The notes under the pieces were generated by a model that saw only the letters and a list, made by a program, of their open reading frames with translations, did not search any database and had not been told where the DNA came from. From contig JAUICM010000005.1 in assembly GCA_030427885.1 (NCBI GenBank), positions 186,001 through 250,000 on the forward strand: a DNA stretch of 64,000 bases, read 5' to 3'. The stretch is from Rhodothermia bacterium. GTDB lineage: Bacteria > Bacteroidota > Rhodothermia > Balneolales > Balneolaceae. Made by a program: the position numbers and the translations under genes. Position 1 is the first letter of the stretch; every line of letters starts with the position of its first letter. Below, one piece after another: positions 14,490 to 25,385 of this stretch.

Positions 14490-16259
14490 ATGCCAACCAA
14501 CAGCCAACAGCTAAAAGCCAAAAAACCAGCCATCAAAAAACGCTGGACTGAAGTGCCCGTAAACTGGCGCGAGATCAAAGACGAGATCGACAATGCGCCA
14601 CATGGAATGAAAACCGCCGTCAAAGAACAGATCTCTGAGCGCCTCGGCCTCAGCCTCGACCAGATCCACAGCGCCATCCGAGACACCTTCGGCCCCGCCA
14701 AAACCATCAAAAAAAGAAAGTTCAAAAAGAAAGAAGACCGCGAAGCCTACGAGCGCAACCGACGCATCGCCTACCTGGCAGCCGAGCAAAAACAAAAGAT
14801 GAAAGCCGCCGGCGAAGGCGAGAGAGAAATGGCAACCTGGCGAATACTCAAACTCTTCCGGGAATGGGAAATCGAAGGTGTGGAAGAATGCAACGAAAGC
14901 ACCATCAACCGCATCATGGCCGAAGAAATGGGCTTCCGCGAAAAGACACCACGCACCCGGCACGAGCCCGCCTACGCGCTGCAGGAAGTACAAGTCGATT
15001 TCTCCTTCAGCAAATACTTCACCGTAACCCACTACGACAAAGACCAGGGCGACTACATCCTGCAGGCTTCCCGCAAAGTGCTGCGCTACAAAGAAGGCGA
15101 CAAACGAATGAGGCCCATGCTCGGCGTCATCATGGATTCCTACTCGCGCCTGCGCTACCACAAAGCCATCATCACCAGTGGTGAGAGTGGAAGCAACACC
15201 ACCGCCTTCATGATATCCTTCTTCAACCGCGACGAAGACGAGCTCGTCTTCCGCCATGTACCGTGGATGTTCAAGATGGACAACGGGCCACTCGCCAAAA
15301 GCCAGGAAGGCCAGAGCTTCTTCAAAAGCATCCGGCGTGAGGTCCAGACCTCAACCCCATACGAAAAGACCGGTATCGGGAAAGCCGAGCGAGGCTGGCA
15401 GCTCATCTGGCAATGGGAAATGGAAATAGCCAGCCGTGTAGGCGATCGGGGCATGATCACCCTTAACGACTATAACAGCGCGCTGCTCGCCGAATGCGTA
15501 CGCCAGCAATACGAAAATCACCCATTCTATTCCGATCGCACCCGCATAGATATGTATCAACAAAGTATCCTTGCACAAGATCCGCGGCCGGAAGTGGTAG
15601 GCAATGATCTGCGCGACAGCGTATACACCGTACTGGAACGCACCGTCGGGCAGGACCAGATCATCAAGATCGCAAACAAACCCTTTCAGGTTCCGGTCTA
15701 CGCCGGGGACCACCACACCACCGGGCGCAGGATCAGGGTACTCATCCATCGCGATGGCCGCATGAAAGGCGAGCTCATCGATCGCAATGCAGATCTGTTC
15801 GATATCGACGAATTCATCCCAACCCAAACCGGAACCTTCAACACCCATGCCAAAACCTTCCCGCAACAACTCGACAAACACATCAAAAACGGCGAAGCCA
15901 TCACCGACCAACTCCGCAAGCTCGCAACAACTCAAAACTCAACACTCAACACTCAAAACTTAACCGGCCCAAAACGCCTCATGCCCGCATCCGACGAACT
16001 CACAGTCGATAGTCCGTTCTCCCCTGGGGGGGAGTCCGCCGAAGGCGGGAGGGGGGTCGTACAGGCTGAGACATGTCGAAACAAATTCGAAGCCCTCAGC
16101 ATCGTAGCCGAGATCCTCAAACGCGAAGGCCACGAAATGAGCGAAGAAGTCAGAATCTACTTCGAAACCTACGCCATCGACAATGCCCTCAACAAAACCG
16201 CGATCATGAATGAAGCCCACCGCCTCATCCAGATCCTCAACGAACAAACCGGAACGTGA
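14490..16259 (+). CDS. MuA-like DDE transposase
   Basis: A 589-residue protein. The N-terminal 150 residues are helical and basic, with DNA-binding segments. The catalytic core is an RNase-H-fold rve domain with D170 (EVQVDFS), D264 (KMDNGP) and E300 (GIGKAER), a DD35E spacing. D216 lies in the conserved MDSYSR strand. A beta-barrel-like region (about 385-450) follows, as in Mu transposase, and then a helical C-terminal domain (about 530-589) that would contact the MuB-like ATPase. Residues about 479-530 are a linker encoded by two different repeat types. The first codons (NSQQLKAK) also coincide with a heptamer repeat. It performs replicative transposition of the phage. No frameshift seen. 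Confidence 0.92.
   Translation: MPTNSQQLKAKKPAIKKRWTEVPVNWREIKDEIDNAPHGMKTAVKEQISERLGLSLDQIHSAIRDTFGPAKTIKKRKFKKKEDREAYERNRRIAYLAAEQKQKMKAAGEGEREMATWRILKLFREWEIEGVEECNESTINRIMAEEMGFREKTPRTRHEPAYALQEVQVDFSFSKYFTVTHYDKDQGDYILQASRKVLRYKEGDKRMRPMLGVIMDSYSRLRYHKAIITSGESGSNTTAFMISFFNRDEDELVFRHVPWMFKMDNGPLAKSQEGQSFFKSIRREVQTSTPYEKTGIGKAERGWQLIWQWEMEIASRVGDRGMITLNDYNSALLAECVRQQYENHPFYSDRTRIDMYQQSILAQDPRPEVVGNDLRDSVYTVLERTVGQDQIIKIANKPFQVPVYAGDHHTTGRRIRVLIHRDGRMKGELIDRNADLFDIDEFIPTQTGTFNTHAKTFPQQLDKHIKNGEAITDQLRKLATTQNSTLNTQNLTGPKRLMPASDELTVDSPFSPGGESAEGGRGVVQAETCRNKFEALSIVAEILKREGHEMSEEVRIYFETYAIDNALNKTAIMNEAHRLIQILNEQTGT
15927..15961 (+). repeat. Heptamer repeat inside the transposase gene
   Basis: Five in-frame actcaaa/actcaac units, encoding the TTQNSTLNTQN part of the transposase linker. 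Confidence 0.85.
16018..16058 (+). repeat. GC-rich palindromic repeat inside the transposase gene
   Basis: Two nested palindromes (ctcccc...ggggag and tccgcc-gaa-ggcgga) form an in-frame Pro/Gly/Glu-rich insert in the transposase linker. It resembles the C/G-run inverted repeat at 39505-39607. Confidence 0.7.
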
Positions 16260-16260
16260 T

Positions 16261-16593
16261 ATGTGTAAACACAATCCTTGCAGTCACCCAGATTGCGAAG
16301 AAAAATTAGCTTGGGAAGACTTGGATTTCTGTCCTGATTGTGGCGCACCTACTTGCGGTAAACATGATAATTGCTGGCTCTGTGATGGCCTAGAAGATAT
16401 TCCCGCCACATGTGAAAACTGCGGTAGAGTATGTAATAGTTGGGATGAGCTTGAAATGCCTTACTGTGCCGCACATTACGGTGAGTGTGACGACCGCTAT
16501 CAATGTGAAGAGTGCCGAGAAAAATGGACTTGTCCTGGTGGCGGCCAATATGAACTAGCACTGGATTATTCGGACGGTAGTCTGCCTTTTTAA
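16261..16593 (+). CDS. Cysteine-rich multi-zinc-ribbon protein
   Basis: A 110-residue protein starting MCKHNPCSHPDCEEK with about sixteen cysteines in CxxC pairs (FCPDCGAPTC, NCWLCDG, TCENCGRVC, QCEECREKWTC) plus several histidines. This predicts three or more zinc-binding knuckles. It begins one base after the transposase stop and is AT-rich relative to it. It may be a small nucleic-acid- or protein-binding adaptor. No defined family recognised. Confidence 0.68.
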   Translation: MCKHNPCSHPDCEEKLAWEDLDFCPDCGAPTCGKHDNCWLCDGLEDIPATCENCGRVCNSWDELEMPYCAAHYGECDDRYQCEECREKWTCPGGGQYELALDYSDGSLPF

Positions 16594-16619
16594 TTCATAA
16601 TTCAAAATCCAAAATTGCA
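16594..16619 (+). repeat. AT-rich heptamer repeat leader
   Basis: About four units (ttcataa, ttcaaaa, tccaaaa, ttgcaa) fill the 26-bp gap up to ATG 16620. Confidence 0.75.
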
Positions 16620-17009
16620 ATGATTCTATCCTTCAAAGCCCAATTCAAAGAGCCGATTTTAAACGGCACCAAGATCCACACCATCCGGGAAGACAAGCCA
16701 GACCGCTGGAAGCCTGGTATGAAGATCCACGCCGCCACCGGCGTGAGAACCCCCAATTACGACTGCTTCTTTGAAAGCAAGTGCGTAAGCACCCAGGAGA
16801 TTTGGATCTGTAGGTACCCTTCATATAAGGATATAAAGATAGACGGGCGGCATGTTACTGAAATCATATTCGATGATAGGAGCACTACCCAGCTCGCAAA
16901 AAACGATGGATTCGAAGATATCAATGATCTCTTTGAATTTTTCTTTCCTAAAGATGGATATGGGATGTTTAAAGGAAAAATCATCCACTGGACCGACTTC
17001 AAATATTGA
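16620..17009 (+). CDS. ASCH/PUA-like domain protein
   Basis: A 129-residue protein whose start (MILSFKAQFKEPILNGTKIH followed by TIRED) and later KPGMKIHAATGVRT and AKNDGFEDINDLFEFF segments follow the ASCH-like pattern (beta-barrel RNA/nucleotide-binding fold). ASCH proteins bind RNA or modified nucleosides, and some hydrolyse modified cytidines. In a phage early operon it could deal with modified bases or RNA. It lies between the transposase and ATPase genes. The fold call is fairly good, the function open. Confidence 0.65.
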   Translation: MILSFKAQFKEPILNGTKIHTIREDKPDRWKPGMKIHAATGVRTPNYDCFFESKCVSTQEIWICRYPSYKDIKIDGRHVTEIIFDDRSTTQLAKNDGFEDINDLFEFFFPKDGYGMFKGKIIHWTDFKY

Positions 17010-17017
17010 GCCTTCAA

Positions 17018-17037
17018 CCTATAAAGAGCTTTATAGG
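17018..17037 (+). promoter_or_regulatory. Perfect 8-bp stem hairpin ahead of the MuB-like gene
   Basis: Cctataaa, gagc loop, tttatagg. It lies between the ASCH-like gene and the ATPase gene. No T-run follows, so an RNA processing or operator site is as likely as a terminator. Confidence 0.45.
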
Positions 17038-17073
17038 CCAATTAACCAATAACGATTTAACAGCAACCAAACC

Positions 17074-18042
17074 ATGAAAAAAACAAGCATCATCCGACAA
17101 AGCACGCTCAACCACTTCGGCCTCAAAGAAGCCGGCACCTACGAGAGCAAGCTGCACCAAACCCTCATCGACGATATCAAAGACGGGATCAATAACCAGT
17201 ACATGATGGCGATCGTGGGCGAATTTGGCTCCGGAAAGAGCCAGCTGCAGCACATGCTCGAAGCTGCATTCCTCGGCCAGAACGACCGGCCGGTTTTCGT
17301 GCATATCGTATCACCAGACAAAAAGAAACTCAATATCGGTGCCGTGGTTGACGCTTTTATCGACCGCCTGGGAGTAAAAGATCCGGGAAGATCTGTAAAC
17401 GCCAAAACCACTAACCTGATCCCTGCACTAGGCGAATCACTGATCGGGGCACAACGCAATATCTGTCTGGTAATAGACAACGCCCACCGCTGCGATCTGG
17501 AACTGTTCAGCGAGATCCGGGATCTCAGAGAGCAGCACTATAATGGAATATTCCCGCTGTTCAGTGTGCTGCTCATCGGTCAGCCCGGTATGGAATCTAA
17601 GCTCATGAAACGTAAAGAGGTCGGATGGCGAACTCAGTTTTATCACCTGAATGAAAAGAATGGCTGGTGGACCTTCGAACACCGCATCAAATACCTGCAG
17701 GCCGTGTACAATGGAGCCATCACTCCACAGGCGCAGATCAATATCGCCAGCAGAACCACCGTTCCCCTGGTTATGGATCAGCTCGTCAAAGACAGTATGG
17801 AAGCAGCCCGCGCCGTCCGCCTCGATGTAGTCAACGAAGAAGTGGTCCCCGCCTCAGACAAAGAGATCCTTTCCGGGCTCGGCCTCAGCTACGCAGACGT
17901 GGCAGAAGCCGCCGGCGTTGGAAAGACAACAGTGAACAACTACATCAACGGTGAGCAGGTTGGAAAAGACTCCGCCGATAAGATCTCATCCGCCATTGAG
18001 AAACTAAAAGGCGAAAAAACCCAGTTCAAAAATGCGGTGTGA
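17074..18042 (+). CDS. MuB-like transposition ATPase with C-terminal HTH
   Basis: A 322-residue AAA+ protein. Walker A is GEFGSGKS (49-56) and Walker B ICLVIDNAH with D135. A sensor-1-like FSVLLIGQPG lies near 163-172. This matches the MuB/TniB/ExeA-like group that binds target DNA and activates the transposase. At the C-terminus (about 270-295) is an XRE-like helix-turn-helix (LSYADVAEAAGVGKTTVNNY), followed by a helix to the end. In Mu B the HTH-like domain is N-terminal, so the order is swapped here. It sits two genes after the transposase. Confidence 0.87.
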   Translation: MKKTSIIRQSTLNHFGLKEAGTYESKLHQTLIDDIKDGINNQYMMAIVGEFGSGKSQLQHMLEAAFLGQNDRPVFVHIVSPDKKKLNIGAVVDAFIDRLGVKDPGRSVNAKTTNLIPALGESLIGAQRNICLVIDNAHRCDLELFSEIRDLREQHYNGIFPLFSVLLIGQPGMESKLMKRKEVGWRTQFYHLNEKNGWWTFEHRIKYLQAVYNGAITPQAQINIASRTTVPLVMDQLVKDSMEAARAVRLDVVNEEVVPASDKEILSGLGLSYADVAEAAGVGKTTVNNYINGEQVGKDSADKISSAIEKLKGEKTQFKNAV

Positions 18043-18389
18043 CTTCCTTAGATTCACATATCCGGAAACTCATAAACCACTTTCGCATGGCGTCGCTTAA
18101 CGATCTGCTTCGGGAAGCCCACAAAGAGGCAAAGAGAAAAGCCGCTTCGAACAAAGAAGAGGGCACTTATCGCAAAGCCTTCAACAGTTACCTGGTCCCA
18201 AAGATCCAGGAGCTGTTCGAGGTAGATCTGCGCCAGCGCGAAATGGACCGTTTTGAAAAGGGTTTATGGAGCACCATCGAATTGTGGCGCGGGTCGCAGG
18301 GCTTCAAAAATACCGGCGAGTTTCTCGGCGTCGTTTACCGTTTTACAGAGAAGTTCATGAAAGAAAAGAAAGCCGGCCAGCCAGATTAA
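18039..18389 (+). CDS. Hypothetical protein, last gene of the phage early operon
   Basis: A 116-residue basic helical protein starting at GTG 18039, which overlaps the ATPase stop as GTGA; an internal ATG at 18087 is an alternative start. The sequence (LREAHKEAKRKAASNKEEGT and KIQELFEVDLRQREMDRFEK) looks like a small all-helical fold. Being coupled to the MuB-like gene and last before the presumed phage end, it may assist transposition or control it. No family recognised. Confidence 0.62.
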   Translation: MTSLDSHIRKLINHFRMASLNDLLREAHKEAKRKAASNKEEGTYRKAFNSYLVPKIQELFEVDLRQREMDRFEKGLWSTIELWRGSQGFKNTGEFLGVVYRFTEKFMKEKKAGQPD

Positions 18390-20128: not shown

Positions 20129-20899
20129 ATGGTATCAAAAAGATCACTGTTATTGATCCCCTTGCTATGCATGTTATGGGAAGTACCACTTCGTGCCCAG
20201 TTCTATATTGGCTGGGATATGGGGGGCATTAGCATTGATTTGCGGGACGAGTACCTTTCACGAAACCGGTACGAAGGAATTACACCGGGGCTGTTAAATG
20301 CAGTACTTAGTTATTCGAATGAAAAGAATATCCTGAATGCCAGATTCGGGAAGCAGTCGACGGATCTCAAGCTTAGCAATAACGCTGATTATTATTTCAA
20401 TTCCAATTACATGGAGATCAATAATTTTGAGCTGGATGTAGAGTATTTGAGAAAAGTTAAAGGATGGGATTCAAATCTGAATCTGTTTCTTGGGATAGCT
20501 CACAATGGCCACTTCAGCTATTATAAACGATATATTGAGTCAAGGTATGTGAATGATGCCCAGAACTCTCATGAAATGGGAATGCTGAATTTCTCGGCTA
20601 TCGGAATGCTTCAGTACCACCATAAATATGGTACACTTCAGTTTAAGTCAGGGATCAGTATATATAATTATGGATCCCGGCCCGTAGAACCACGATATGG
20701 TGGAGACTTTAATTACCGGGGGATGTGGATGAATGATTATTTCCAACTCCAAAACAGTCTTGTTGGTATTATTCCGCTGAATGATCAGTTCCAATTTAAA
20801 GCAGAGTACAGGCTCAGATATTACACTTTCCAGGATCCTCAGCAGCTTAAAATGCTTAAACAATCATTCCTTATAGGGCTGGGTGTGAAACTATGGTGA
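20129..20899 (+). CDS. Predicted outer-membrane beta-barrel-like protein (copy 1)
   Basis: A 256-residue protein with a signal peptide (MVSKRSLLLIPLLCMLWEVP, cleavage near LRA-Q). The mature part is rich in alternating Tyr/Phe/Gly/Asn strands and ends in a hydrophobic GLGVKLW, as in outer-membrane barrels. The next gene, an S41 lipoprotein, overlaps it by 7 nt. The same pair recurs at 21984-23779, so the two proteins probably work together at the outer membrane. No named family recognised. Confidence 0.65.
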   Translation: MVSKRSLLLIPLLCMLWEVPLRAQFYIGWDMGGISIDLRDEYLSRNRYEGITPGLLNAVLSYSNEKNILNARFGKQSTDLKLSNNADYYFNSNYMEINNFELDVEYLRKVKGWDSNLNLFLGIAHNGHFSYYKRYIESRYVNDAQNSHEMGMLNFSAIGMLQYHHKYGTLQFKSGISIYNYGSRPVEPRYGGDFNYRGMWMNDYFQLQNSLVGIIPLNDQFQFKAEYRLRYYTFQDPQQLKMLKQSFLIGLGVKLW

Positions 20900-21906
20900 G
20901 GAAGGTAGTACCCATATTGATACTGATAGTGCTCGCGGGTTGTGATAATCTGTTCTTCGATGATGATGATATTGCGGCTCCGCTGGAAGTGTATGACTCA
21001 TTTTATAAAGAACTGGACGAATACTTTTCGTTCTTTCCATATCTCACACAGGATTTTGATTCTGCATTTCAGGCAAATAGAATTCCGATTGTACAAAACC
21101 AGGATTCAGATGAGTTGATCAACTCGATGAATGAGATGATTCAATTTCTGAAAGACGGACATACCAATGTGTTCATCGGGAATAATGCCTTGAGTTACAC
21201 AGGTTGGTTCGATCAGTATCCGGCAAATGAGCTTCCGGATATATCAGGATATCTCGCCTCCAATACCGTTTTGAATGATGCTCTTTCCTTTGGGCGGATT
21301 TCAGGTGAGAATTTGGGTTATATCAGGATCTCAACCTTTACCGGGAATCTGCCCATCTCACATTATGAAGTGATTGATAACATTCTGGAGCAGTTAAAGG
21401 AAATGGATGGAATTATCATTGATGTACGGTCTAATGGCGGTGGAAATTCAAATAATGCAGACCTTATAGTCTCTCGATTTAATGATGAACCACGATTTAT
21501 GTTTCGCCGCCGGACCAGATTAGCTTCAGGTAGAAATGATTTTACCGAGTGGTTCGACTATCACACTGAGGTGCATGAAGGGTTCAGGTTTTCCAAACCA
21601 GTAGCAGTACTAACAAACAGACGTAGTTTCAGCTCCACAGAGTGGTTCGTTTCAGGGATGCGTACAATTCCGTATGTAACGGTTGTTGGAGACACTACAG
21701 GAGGAGGCAGCGGAAACCCGATCCACAGAGTTCTGCCTAACGGCTGGAGCATGAGAATATCAAATACTCAGAAACAGTTGCCCGAAGGCTATGATTTTCA
21801 ATATATTGGAATTCCACCGGATGTTCCTGTATGGATATCAAATGCTGATTCCATTTCAGGAATTGACAGCATCTTAGAAAAAGCAATTCAAATACTGAAC
21901 GAATGA
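20893..21906 (+). CDS. S41-family protease lipoprotein
   Basis: A 337-residue protein with a lipoprotein signal (lipobox LAGC, Cys17). The protease features are FLKDGHTNV with H90, a typical S41 position, IIIDVRSNGGGNSNNAD (about 174-190), and the nucleophile region RRSFSSTEWF with S247 three residues before E250. GDTTGGGSGNP follows, the GGG form seen in S41B/tricorn-type enzymes where CtpA-type proteases have a lysine. It should act in the periplasm or on the cell surface. Its ATG lies inside the end of the barrel-like gene, so synthesis is coupled. Confidence 0.82.
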   Translation: MVRKVVPILILIVLAGCDNLFFDDDDIAAPLEVYDSFYKELDEYFSFFPYLTQDFDSAFQANRIPIVQNQDSDELINSMNEMIQFLKDGHTNVFIGNNALSYTGWFDQYPANELPDISGYLASNTVLNDALSFGRISGENLGYIRISTFTGNLPISHYEVIDNILEQLKEMDGIIIDVRSNGGGNSNNADLIVSRFNDEPRFMFRRRTRLASGRNDFTEWFDYHTEVHEGFRFSKPVAVLTNRRSFSSTEWFVSGMRTIPYVTVVGDTTGGGSGNPIHRVLPNGWSMRISNTQKQLPEGYDFQYIGIPPDVPVWISNADSISGIDSILEKAIQILNE

Positions 21907-21983
21907 AATAAAGAGTTACGATTTGTTGGTCAGTTAAAAGACCAACGGAGTACAGGTTATTAATTTAAACATTAGCTGGTACC

Positions 21984-22739
21984 GTGAAGTTAACTCTTAT
22001 AGCCCTCTTCCTGATTTCATTCAATCTGGTGTCTGTATCGTCTGCACAGGTTTTCATTAACTATGACATAGGTGTGGCAAAAACGGCATTTCAGGATTTC
22101 GAATTAAGCGACAACTATCATCATGGCTTTTCTCCTTCCCTTTCGAATATTGGATTTAAATATGTGAAAAACGAGACGAAGCTGGAACTAAGATTCAGTC
22201 ACCTGTATGATAAGCTGACCCCGGCGATTCAGGAGATAAATTATTTTGAAACCAACATCCTTGAATTCAGAAGTAATAAGTTTCAATTAAGATATTTGAA
22301 GAACATAAAATCAGTTTCTGATAGAATAAGTTTTTTCTTGGGGTATGAGATTCTAACCAAATTTTTGAGATATGAACTAGATCAAGAGTCAGGTTTCCTA
22401 ACCCGAAGGTCTGATGAGACTAGAACTATGTATGTAAACTTGTCACTAATTGGAGGTATTAAATATACTAAAGAAGATTTTGAGATCGAATGTAGTTTGG
22501 GTTTCGGGGCTATACGATATATTAAAAAAACAGAATACAATGATTACTCAATAGACTATGGAATGGGCTTGTTTCTATTTAGGCTTCTACAGAGTGACTT
22601 TAGTGTTTCTTTTTGGCTGAATGAAAGAATTGCTGTTAAGCCGGTATATTCTTTCAGGTATGAAAGTGAAAATATCTATTATGGATCAAAACAGTTTGAA
22701 CACTCAGTTCTGGTTGGAGGAGTTTTCAAACTATGGTAA
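21984..22739 (+). CDS. Predicted outer-membrane beta-barrel-like protein (copy 2)
   Basis: A 251-residue paralogue of the protein at 20129, starting at GTG 21984 with a signal peptide ending near SSAQ. It shares the YIGWDMG/FINYDIG-type mature start, the same length and spacing of beta strands, and the C-terminal GGVFKLW. The gene is clearly more AT-rich than copy 1, suggesting relaxed or older divergence. It overlaps the following S41-like gene by 7 nt exactly as in copy 1. Confidence 0.65.
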   Translation: MKLTLIALFLISFNLVSVSSAQVFINYDIGVAKTAFQDFELSDNYHHGFSPSLSNIGFKYVKNETKLELRFSHLYDKLTPAIQEINYFETNILEFRSNKFQLRYLKNIKSVSDRISFFLGYEILTKFLRYELDQESGFLTRRSDETRTMYVNLSLIGGIKYTKEDFEIECSLGFGAIRYIKKTEYNDYSIDYGMGLFLFRLLQSDFSVSFWLNERIAVKPVYSFRYESENIYYGSKQFEHSVLVGGVFKLW

Positions 22740-23779
22740 GACGAGCTTTGATCGTAATTCTTTTGATACCCTCATTAAGTTGTGAAGGTCTTTTTTTCGA
22801 TACGCCAGATGAATCTGATCCACTAGAAATATATGATAAGTTTATTTCTAAGATAGAAGAGCATTCTCCACAATTCCCTTATTTCAACATCGACATAGAT
22901 TCTGTTTTTGAAATCAACAGGAACAGGATTATTAGCAATCCAACAGGTAGGGAATTGACAGCGTCTTTTCAGGAAATATTGAACGTATTTGAAGATGCAA
23001 ATATGAAGCTTATTACATCATCAGATCATCAAAGAATTGAAATCTACTACTCCGATTGGTTAACAAAAAAACCACTAAACACCCTTCTGGATATATCTAA
23101 TTATTTTGAGACTTATACTGCCCCTAATCGTTTGATAGAGTACGGGATGATCTCTGGTGTCAATCTGGGCTATATCAAAATAAATACCTTTAATTTAGGT
23201 TGGCAGGTAGATAGTCTGGAAGCAGTGCTGAGGTACAATTTTAAAGATACGAATGGCCTTGTAATTGATATCCGGTCAACGTACACAGAGTACGCATCGT
23301 CATCAGGTAACCGTGAAGCCGAGGAATTGAGTTCATTTTTCAGTACCGAGAGAAAGGTTTTTCTTTACCAGAGATATAAATTTCCTTCCGGACGAATGGA
23401 CTTTTCAGAATGGGAGCCATTGTATACTATTTCAAAACCGAATAATTCAAATGTGGCTTATTCAAGACCAGTGGTTGTTTTAACTAATAATCAGACCAAA
23501 GACAGAGCAGAATACTTCGCGGCGGCAATGAGAACTATATCCGATGTTCAGTTTGTTGGCGATACCACGGCAGGTTATCTGCTCGGTTATTGGTTTGATC
23601 ACGTAAAGGGAAACTGGTATATGGAGGGAAGTAACAGAGATTTCAGACTTCCTGATGAAGACAACTCAAATGGATTTTCAGGAATCCCTCCGGATGTCCC
23701 GGTTTCGATCTCAACGGCTGATTCCATGGCTGGCAGGGATACCATTTTAGAAAAAGCGATAGAAATATTGAATCAATAA
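22733..23779 (+). CDS. Degenerate S41-like lipoprotein (pseudo-protease)
   Basis: A 348-residue paralogue of the S41 lipoprotein at 20893. The overall alignment is good at both ends (GLFFDTPDESDPLEIYDKF; GIPPDVPVSIS and the final KAIEILNQ), but the catalytic positions are lost. DGHT becomes DANM (H90 to N90), the GGG loop becomes DIRSTYTEYASSSG, and the nucleophile SSTE becomes DRAE (S to D257). The lipobox (SLSC) is also imperfect. The frame is intact, so it looks like a protein kept for binding rather than proteolysis. Confidence 0.78.
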   Translation: MVRRALIVILLIPSLSCEGLFFDTPDESDPLEIYDKFISKIEEHSPQFPYFNIDIDSVFEINRNRIISNPTGRELTASFQEILNVFEDANMKLITSSDHQRIEIYYSDWLTKKPLNTLLDISNYFETYTAPNRLIEYGMISGVNLGYIKINTFNLGWQVDSLEAVLRYNFKDTNGLVIDIRSTYTEYASSSGNREAEELSSFFSTERKVFLYQRYKFPSGRMDFSEWEPLYTISKPNNSNVAYSRPVVVLTNNQTKDRAEYFAAAMRTISDVQFVGDTTAGYLLGYWFDHVKGNWYMEGSNRDFRLPDEDNSNGFSGIPPDVPVSISTADSMAGRDTILEKAIEILNQ

Positions 23780-23821: not shown

Positions 23822-24280
23822 ATGATCATGAACTCAAAGACTCACAAAGCAACTCTTAACGATCTGGATGAATTAAATCATCTCTTTGATGCCTACCGTG
23901 TTTTTTATAAACAGGGAACTGATAAGGAACAGAGTAGGGCTTTCCTTCAGGAGAGGCTGGAGAAACAGGAATCCGTGATTTTCATCAGTAGAAACGATTC
24001 TAGTACTGCAACAGGATTTACACAATTATATCCTCTTTTCTCATCCACCAGAATGAAAAGAGTGTGGCTGCTGAACGATCTGTTTGTGAAGCAGGAATAT
24101 CGTGGCCAGGGTTTTTCAAAAGCATTGATAGAACGGGCAAAGAAACTGTGCAGAGAAACAAATGCCGTTGGAATGATGCTGGAAACGGATAAAAGCAATT
24201 CCATCGGAAACCGCCTTTATTCTAAAACAGGCTGGACGCTGGATAAGAAACATAATTTCTATCACTGGGAAGTTGACTAA
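23822..24280 (+). CDS. GNAT family N-acetyltransferase
   Basis: A 152-residue protein with the GNAT core: an N-terminal helix region (LNDLDELNHLFDAYRVFYKQ), strand 4 (RVWLLNDLFV) and motif A EYRGQGFSKALIERAKKL, which binds acetyl-CoA. A C-terminal NRLYSKTGWTLDKKHNFYHW follows. It transfers an acetyl group from acetyl-CoA to an unknown amine. Its end overlaps the next gene by 8 nt. Start could be ATG 23822 or the Met two codons later. Confidence 0.85.
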   Translation: MIMNSKTHKATLNDLDELNHLFDAYRVFYKQGTDKEQSRAFLQERLEKQESVIFISRNDSSTATGFTQLYPLFSSTRMKRVWLLNDLFVKQEYRGQGFSKALIERAKKLCRETNAVGMMLETDKSNSIGNRLYSKTGWTLDKKHNFYHWEVD

Positions 24281-25385
24281 AAAGACGATTGTACTTCTTG
24301 AACCCTTCTATTCCGGCTCCCATAAACAATGGGCAGAAGGACTGAAGAAGCATTCTTCTCATAATATCAGAATTCTGAGTTTGCCCGGAAGACACTGGAA
24401 ATGGAGGATGCACGGCGGGGCAGTGGAACTGGCTAAACAGTTCAATGACCTAAAGCAAAAACCGGATCTTGTCCTTGCTACATCCATGCTGGACCTGACG
24501 ACCTTTCTGGCACTCACCCGTGAGAAATCAGCCGGTATTCCAACAGCGATCTATTTCCATGAGAATCAGCTTACCTATCCGTGGTCTCCTCAGGACCGGG
24601 ATGTAAAGAAGAAAAGGAATAATCATTATTCCTTTATCAATTATGTGTCAGCTCTGGCTGCGGATAAAGTGTTTTTCAATTCGGAGTATCACAGGACTTC
24701 CTTTCTGGAAGCACTGCCCAAATTTCTGAAGCAGTTTCCAGATAAACGCGGTCATCCAAATATTGATCTCATTAAACAGAAAAGTGAGGTACTTCATCTG
24801 GGAATGGACCTTTCTTCTTTTGAAGCATTCCGGGACTCTGAAAAAGAAAAGGAATCCGAACCGGTGATATTGTGGAATCACCGCTGGGAATACGATAAAC
24901 GACCCAAAGCCTTTTTCAAATCATTGTTTCGGTTAAAGGAGCGAGGTTTGAAATTCAAACTGGTGGTGCTGGGGGAACAGAACGATGTGACCCCACCCAT
25001 TTTTGAAGAAGCAAGAGAGAAACTCTCGAACGAGGTCCTTCATTGGGGATACACCGAAGATCAGGAAGCGTATGCCCGATGGTTGTGGAGAGCCGATATT
25101 CTGCCTGTGACATCCAATCAGGATTTCTTTGGGGGAAGTGTGGTGGAAGCCATGTACTGTGATTGTCACCCGATACTGCCCAACAGATTGGCATATCCGG
25201 AACATATCCCCAAAAAGATCCATCGGGATTTTTTGTATGAAGAAGGTGAGCTTGATTTGAGGATAGAAACAGCGATACAAAATGTAATGGCTATTCGTCG
25301 GGTGGATTACCAATCAATGGTAAAGCAGTATGATTGGCAGGAATTGATCGGGAAGTATGACTCGAAGCTGGAGGAAATAAGTTGA
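24273..25385 (+). CDS. tRNA-queuosine alpha-mannosyltransferase-like protein (DUF3524/GT4)
   Basis: A 370-residue glycosyltransferase starting at TTG 24273 (MTKKTIVLLEPFYSGSHKQW). The N-terminal DUF3524 domain is well marked: EPFYSGSHKQWAEGL, LPGRHWKWRMHGGAV, IYFHENQLTYPW and FNSEYHRTSFL. The C-terminal GT-B half has LWNHRWEYDKRP and NQDFFGGSVVEAMYC. The family includes vertebrate GTDC1/QTMAN, which mannosylates queuosine in tRNA-Asp; bacterial members are common but less studied. It overlaps both the acetyltransferase and the following hydrolase gene by a few bases. Confidence 0.8.
   Translation: MTKKTIVLLEPFYSGSHKQWAEGLKKHSSHNIRILSLPGRHWKWRMHGGAVELAKQFNDLKQKPDLVLATSMLDLTTFLALTREKSAGIPTAIYFHENQLTYPWSPQDRDVKKKRNNHYSFINYVSALAADKVFFNSEYHRTSFLEALPKFLKQFPDKRGHPNIDLIKQKSEVLHLGMDLSSFEAFRDSEKEKESEPVILWNHRWEYDKRPKAFFKSLFRLKERGLKFKLVVLGEQNDVTPPIFEEAREKLSNEVLHWGYTEDQEAYARWLWRADILPVTSNQDFFGGSVVEAMYCDCHPILPNRLAYPEHIPKKIHRDFLYEEGELDLRIETAIQNVMAIRRVDYQSMVKQYDWQELIGKYDSKLEEIS

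Follow-up and report, generated by a model that had tools for sequence, protein, structure and literature searches.

Vertebrate RBP3 (IRBP), a secreted protein of four tandem modules without a known barrel partner, has the fold of S41 peptidases with the catalytic residues lost, and it has been kept for a non-enzymatic task. It evolved from a bacterial S41 peptidase into a carrier of retinoids and fatty acids, and the first DALI match named for it is 4L8K, a Bacteroidota S41 structure (PMC10450429; PMC11750400). The stretch of DNA analysed here (the window, 64,000 nt of contig JAUICM010000005.1 from Rhodothermia bacterium) contains at positions 20129-23779 a bacterial protein with the same kind of loss. 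Two gene pairs lie there, all four open reading frames (ORFs) on the + strand; in each pair a gene for a likely outer-membrane barrel overlaps by exactly 7 nt a gene for an S41 lipoprotein. The first S41 protein (the active type) keeps the catalytic His, glycine loop and nucleophile Ser, and the second (the dead type) has lost them. We favour, with moderate confidence, the reading that the second pair has been retained as a pseudoprotease module, in which the dead S41 protein no longer cuts and serves its barrel as a binding or structural subunit. An S41-fold lipoprotein unable to cut peptides would be produced along with a small outer-membrane barrel of its own (bar2) and would probably act as a non-catalytic subunit of that barrel, at or near the outer membrane. 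Searches of the open-licence literature for inactive S41 proteins, DUF3316, and S41 with a barrel turned up no paper on an S41 pseudoprotease paired with a barrel. The two pairs comprise the following features.

20129..20899, + strand: ORF of bar1, a likely 256-aa outer-membrane barrel that partners the active-type S41 protein; signal-like N-terminus ending AQ, family motif G..D..LS..Y.G, hydrophobic alternation (z 2.6), and a group profile that matches barrels adjoining other S41 genes
20893..20899, + strand: 7-nt overlap between the genes of bar1 and the active-type S41 protein
20893..21906, + strand: active-type S41 lipoprotein, 337 aa, with His90, GGG182-184 and Ser247 kept and Gln303 at the acid position; assigned from PF03572 (102 bits), the catalytic columns and a lipobox-like Cys17
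21160..21162, + strand: His90 codon, active type
21436..21444, + strand: oxyanion-loop codons (Gly182-184), active type
21631..21633, + strand: codon of the nucleophile Ser247, active type
21799..21801, + strand: Gln303 codon, active type (Glu in 28 of 30 other rows)
21984..22739, + strand: ORF of bar2, a likely 251-aa outer-membrane barrel that partners the dead S41 protein; falls in one group (100/100) with the barrels of other dead-type pairs, omega 0.09 against G033
22733..22739, + strand: 7-nt overlap between the genes of bar2 and the dead S41 protein
22733..23779, + strand: dead S41 lipoprotein (pseudoprotease), 348 aa; PF03572 (50.3 bits), catalytic residues lost, intact relatives in genomes G033, G073 and G075, omega 0.08
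23000..23002, + strand: Asn90 codon, in place of the catalytic His, dead S41
23279..23317, + strand: longer loop (approximate, residues 183-195) in place of the glycine oxyanion loop, dead S41
23501..23503, + strand: Asp257 codon, in place of the nucleophile Ser, dead S41

Over 350 aligned positions the two S41 proteins share 37% identity (BLAST E 1e-70); the two barrels share 25% (E 9e-17), and therefore the duplication of a two-gene unit described in the initial annotation is real and not due to chance; the coordinates confirm its 7-nt overlaps, and the similar ends that it noted include the C-terminal K-L-W of both barrel proteins. Both S41 proteins exceed the 24-bit cut-off of the Pfam family PF03572, and the dead protein thus belongs to the S41 fold family; no PDZ domain match was obtained with Pfam for the window proteins. 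The dead S41 protein differs by the changes DGHT to DANM, SNGGG to a longer STYTEY... loop, and SSTE to DRAE, and none of the marks of an active peptidase (nucleophile Ser, His, glycine oxyanion loop) is present in it. These losses, named in the initial annotation, are borne out by an alignment of 38 S41 rows that took in 19 of the 44 matching genomes outside the family, mainly the best scoring, together with G023 of the family; loci L084, of another architecture, and L085, cut by a contig end, are not in it. The nucleophile Ser is found in 34 of the 38 rows and is lost only in the four dead-type rows (D, D, D and G). The catalytic His is found in 36, being replaced by Asn in the window dead copy and in G033 and kept in G073 and G075. 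Gly183 and Gly184 are both present in all 30 other rows (G023 omitted from the residue count); none of the four dead rows has both, and G075 keeps one.

The acid position, near which the alignment is gapped in some rows, is Glu in 28 of the 30 other rows, Gln in all three active-type proteins (those of the window, G005 and G080), and Gly or Arg in the four dead-type proteins. By order and spacing, the triad His105-Ser499-Glu558 of the S41 protease CPAF, as given in PMC8787135, maps to His90-Ser247-Gln303 of the active type, with a Ser-to-Glu spacing of 59 vs 56 here. The "active" copy keeps His90, GGG182-184 and Ser247 and has Gln303 at the acid position; peptidase activity of this copy is likely, although the Gln in place of the usual Glu makes it uncertain. 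An invariant Asp301 two residues ahead of Gln303 in the active-type clade might serve as the acid instead. Read from the tree described below, the order of loss seems to have been the acid, then Ser and the glycine loop, then His. The active-type pair is likely to represent the older state, a barrel-coupled S41 protease. The C-terminal processing peptidases and CPAF share the peptidase core PF03572 with the window proteins, which differ in the missing PDZ match and in the lipoprotein and barrel layout, and, in the dead clade, in the broken triad. One of the two closest solved relatives of both window S41 proteins is 4L8K, which the dead profile matches over the full length with E 2e-38; 8VCB, also from Bacteroidota, is matched over the full length by the active-type profile (E 8e-64). 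Both structures keep Ser and His.

The genome of the window (G000) was compared with 92 genomes of its family and 244 of its class. The dead type is found in 4 of the 244 class genomes, in 3 genera, namely G000, G033, G073 and G075; identities to the window dead S41 protein are 56%, 40% and 39% for the last three, respectively, and the frame is open and stop-free in all four (345-352 aa). The dead-type matches have E values of 1e-178 or better, and the next matches in the class are of the active type (the genome's own copy, E 3e-85; G080, 5e-82; G005, 4e-78). A sample of 394 genomes of the phylum contained no further dead type at the E level of the dead-type matches, and a search of genome contigs with the dead S41 protein returned no more than two relatives, both distant and 401-430 aa long, which were set aside. 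In a tree of 34 S41 rows with the catalytic columns dropped (G023, G260, G410 and G352 omitted), the dead clade is supported at 100/100, the active-type clade at 95/95, and the two are joined at 100/99. The inactive copies thus form a single, stable clade, a point that the initial annotation had proposed to check by aligning more homologues, and the tree indicates that both types are older than the split of the genera and do not stem from a recent local duplication.

Path lengths in the tree (window to G033 in the dead clade, 0.79; window to G005 and to G080 in the active-type clade, 0.72 and 0.79) show no clear acceleration of the dead clade relative to the active-type clade. The ratio of nonsynonymous to synonymous substitution rates (dN/dS, or omega) indicates purifying selection, with dS near saturation: omega of the dead S41 gene is 0.082 between the window and G033 and 0.080 between G073 and G075, and twice the log-likelihood difference (2dlnL) from an omega of 1 is 155 and 170, respectively. 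For the partner barrels the same comparisons give 0.091 (2dlnL 58) and 0.077 (2dlnL 89). In the active-type clade dS is ∼80, so its omega is not comparable with that of the dead clade. Neighbouring genes of the window and G033 range in identity from 50% (an exo-endonuclease gene) to 84% (a flavin adenine dinucleotide (FAD)-dependent gene), and the 56% of the dead S41 protein is therefore unremarkable. The proposal that the dead copy is under selection for a non-enzymatic role is supported by the stable clade, the open frames, the possession of own barrels and the omega of ∼0.08.

Each of the seven pairs (four dead-type, three active-type) has its barrel gene directly upstream of the S41 gene and overlapping it, by 7 nt in both window pairs and G033, by 4 nt in G073, G075 and G080, and by 13 nt in G005 (start as listed). 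The barrel tree shows the same division into dead and active types as the S41 tree, and the distances in the two correlate at 0.80, a value reached in 20 of 5040 relabelings. That these partners are outer-membrane barrels is suggested by their size, signal-like start, C-terminal ends, beta-type hydrophobic alternation (z of 1.2 to 2.9 in seven barrels vs -1.7 to 0.4 in five S41 controls), and an AlphaFold2 model of bar2 with about ten strands, which is poor (mean pLDDT 40.5); the dead S41 model, made like it from a two-row alignment of the window proteins, has a mean pLDDT of 39.5. The barrel label of the initial annotation is therefore an inference: the window barrels have no family match in Pfam or PHROGs, and a PDB search with the barrel profile gave chance-level matches only. 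The lipobox-like Cys17, which is invariant in both clades and present in most other S41 rows, and the barrel-like partner together point to an outer-membrane location for the dead S41 protein.

Such pairs are not confined to the two clades. Beyond them, 16 of 20 loci have an ORF of 256-328 aa ending -31 to +33 nt from the S41 start. In another set of 18 loci, an upstream ORF of barrel size is full in 14, partial in 2 and absent in 1, the remaining locus lying at a contig end. Many of 28 upstream proteins contain the motif G..D..[LM]S..Y.G; 5 of the 28 match DUF3316 (PF11777), to which the window barrels, themselves without a match, align weakly (14%) in profile comparison, and NCBIfam has no family for any of the 28. 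In profile comparison the window barrels align with two other barrel groups over 94.6% and 96.5% of their length, vs 0.7% for the unrelated control A1. Judged from these sequences, pairs of a barrel and an S41 lipoprotein (L121-L139, L068-L083) recur throughout the phylum and point to an uncharacterised two-gene module.

The constant pairing, the gene overlap and the mirrored trees would also be expected if the dead S41 protein were mainly an assembly or plug factor that folds or closes its barrel and has no ligand of its own, and the barrels do change faster than their S41 partners (36% vs 56% identity between the window and G033; 31% vs 63% between the window and G005). Nothing speaks directly against this explanation, but in the dead clade the segment around the lost Ser is still conserved (0.64 vs 0.44, p 0.02), which a mere plug would not need, and we regard it as unlikely. 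On the favoured reading of a binding or structural subunit, the dead S41 protein would be in physical contact with its barrel, and a ligand may occupy the former substrate cleft; the pattern of conservation is compatible with a remodelled binding cleft, without proving one.

Several observations weigh against the subunit reading. The dead type is present in so few of the class genomes that it must be dispensable, and four sequences are all that represent it. The omega values are rough, since dS is 4 to 7 in these comparisons, at or near saturation. Within the dead clade the glycine-loop segment is less conserved than the rest (0.33 vs 0.45), and conservation of the whole cleft is marginal (p 0.046). 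The models, at pLDDT ∼40, are too poor to show a pocket, partner contact or barrel fold. The dead pair also includes the most A+T-rich 1 kb of the window (34.9% G+C at 22001), and a low G+C content fits a mobile or weakly used accessory gene as well.

A more specific possibility, to which we assign a small chance, is an RBP3 counterpart in bacteria: the dead S41 protein would be a barrel-coupled pseudoprotease lipoprotein whose old cleft might serve, at the cell surface, to carry a lipid or peptide or to sense one, and which could replace the protease type in the same chromosomal slot in related species. The dead S41 profile matches the RBP3 structure 9frx in the PDB (E 1.7e-14), although RBP3 consists of tandem modules and the dead S41 protein is a single one. 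The locus provides a natural series from protease to pseudoprotease within one bacterial gene pair, in which the partner barrel can be followed alongside, and it allows the conversion of an S41 protease into a binding protein, the step thought to have yielded RBP3 of the vertebrate eye, to be addressed in bacteria.

It was also suggested that the dead copy regulates the active one, which could occur through mixed dimers or through competition for substrate or barrel. The pairs are adjacent in G000, where co-expression is possible, and a precedent for partnership exists in CspC and CspA of C. difficile. These are soluble, subtilisin-like proteins of spore germination with a fold unrelated to S41; they are reported to be pseudoproteases that work in partnership and retain a bacterial protease fold for signal sensing after catalytic loss. 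However, G033 (one contig, 99% complete), G073 and G075 carry the dead type, and no active-type sister was found in them; G005 and G080, the latter only 82% complete, carry the active type alone, and both types occur together in just one (G000) of the six genomes that have either. The dead S41 protein is therefore independent of the active-type sister, and an obligate regulator is rejected; regulation of the active copy is not supported as a general role. The barrel, present in all four dead-type genomes, is a likelier partner than the sister, which three of them lack. Regulation of the sister, quite unlikely overall, could still be a late, local role in G000 alone.

Decay, or selfish persistence as a functionless accessory duplicate, would agree with the patchy occurrence of the dead pair and with its base composition: its G+C content is 36.8%, vs a window mean of 44.2%, and in each of the four genomes it has a lower G+C at third codon positions than the listed neighbours. 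The chromosomal slot is variable as well. The interval between the FAD-dependent gene and an acetyltransferase gene is occupied by both pairs in G000, by the dead pair in G033 and by the active one in G080; the active pair of G005 is just past the acetyltransferase, and G023 and G010 have no pair beside the FAD-dependent gene, a gene matched in 51 of 89 genomes, with neighbours read in the best 30 of the 51. In G073 and G075 the dead pair is elsewhere, adjoining an aminotransferase-like ORF (named by eye). Differential loss and exchange of whole pairs both fit this pattern. Against decay stand the four open frames, the omega of ∼0.08 far from neutrality, the lack of clear acceleration, and the retained pairing and overlap. 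The initial annotation held that a dead copy absent or broken in all close relatives would be only a decaying duplicate; it is absent from most and intact in three. Purifying selection across genera largely refutes a decaying duplicate, which is rejected here as improbable.

That the dead S41 protein is still an enzyme, acting through residues outside the S41 set, is very improbable, for although three of four members have Asp in place of Ser and an acidic E260 three positions on is invariant, the fourth has Gly at the nucleophile position, two of the four have lost His, all four have another loop in place of the glycine loop, and the Glu position is Gly or Arg.

Three states occur near the same FAD-dependent gene within the single genus that comprises G033, G005 and G023: the dead pair in G033 (L068), the active pair in G005 (L071), and no pair in G023 (L144). 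The 77-nt gap between the window pairs (21907-21983) contains a GTTGGTC ... GACCAAC inverted repeat that lacks a T run and at which the scan calls no terminator; the scan for promoters and terminators found no more than in shuffled sequences. Upstream, at 14490-18389, a 589-aa transposase-like ORF (named by eye, without a family match) is followed by an AAA protein that matches the phage DNA transposition family phrog_296 (E 2.4e-19). The two are perhaps a Mu-type element directly upstream of the FAD-dependent gene, and such genes are not seen upstream of that gene in G033. Next to the pairs, at 24273-25385, is a glycosyltransferase gene whose product carries the tRNA-queuosine alpha-mannosyltransferase N-terminal domain (PF12038, 217 bits); this gene is also found near the pairs in G033 and G005.

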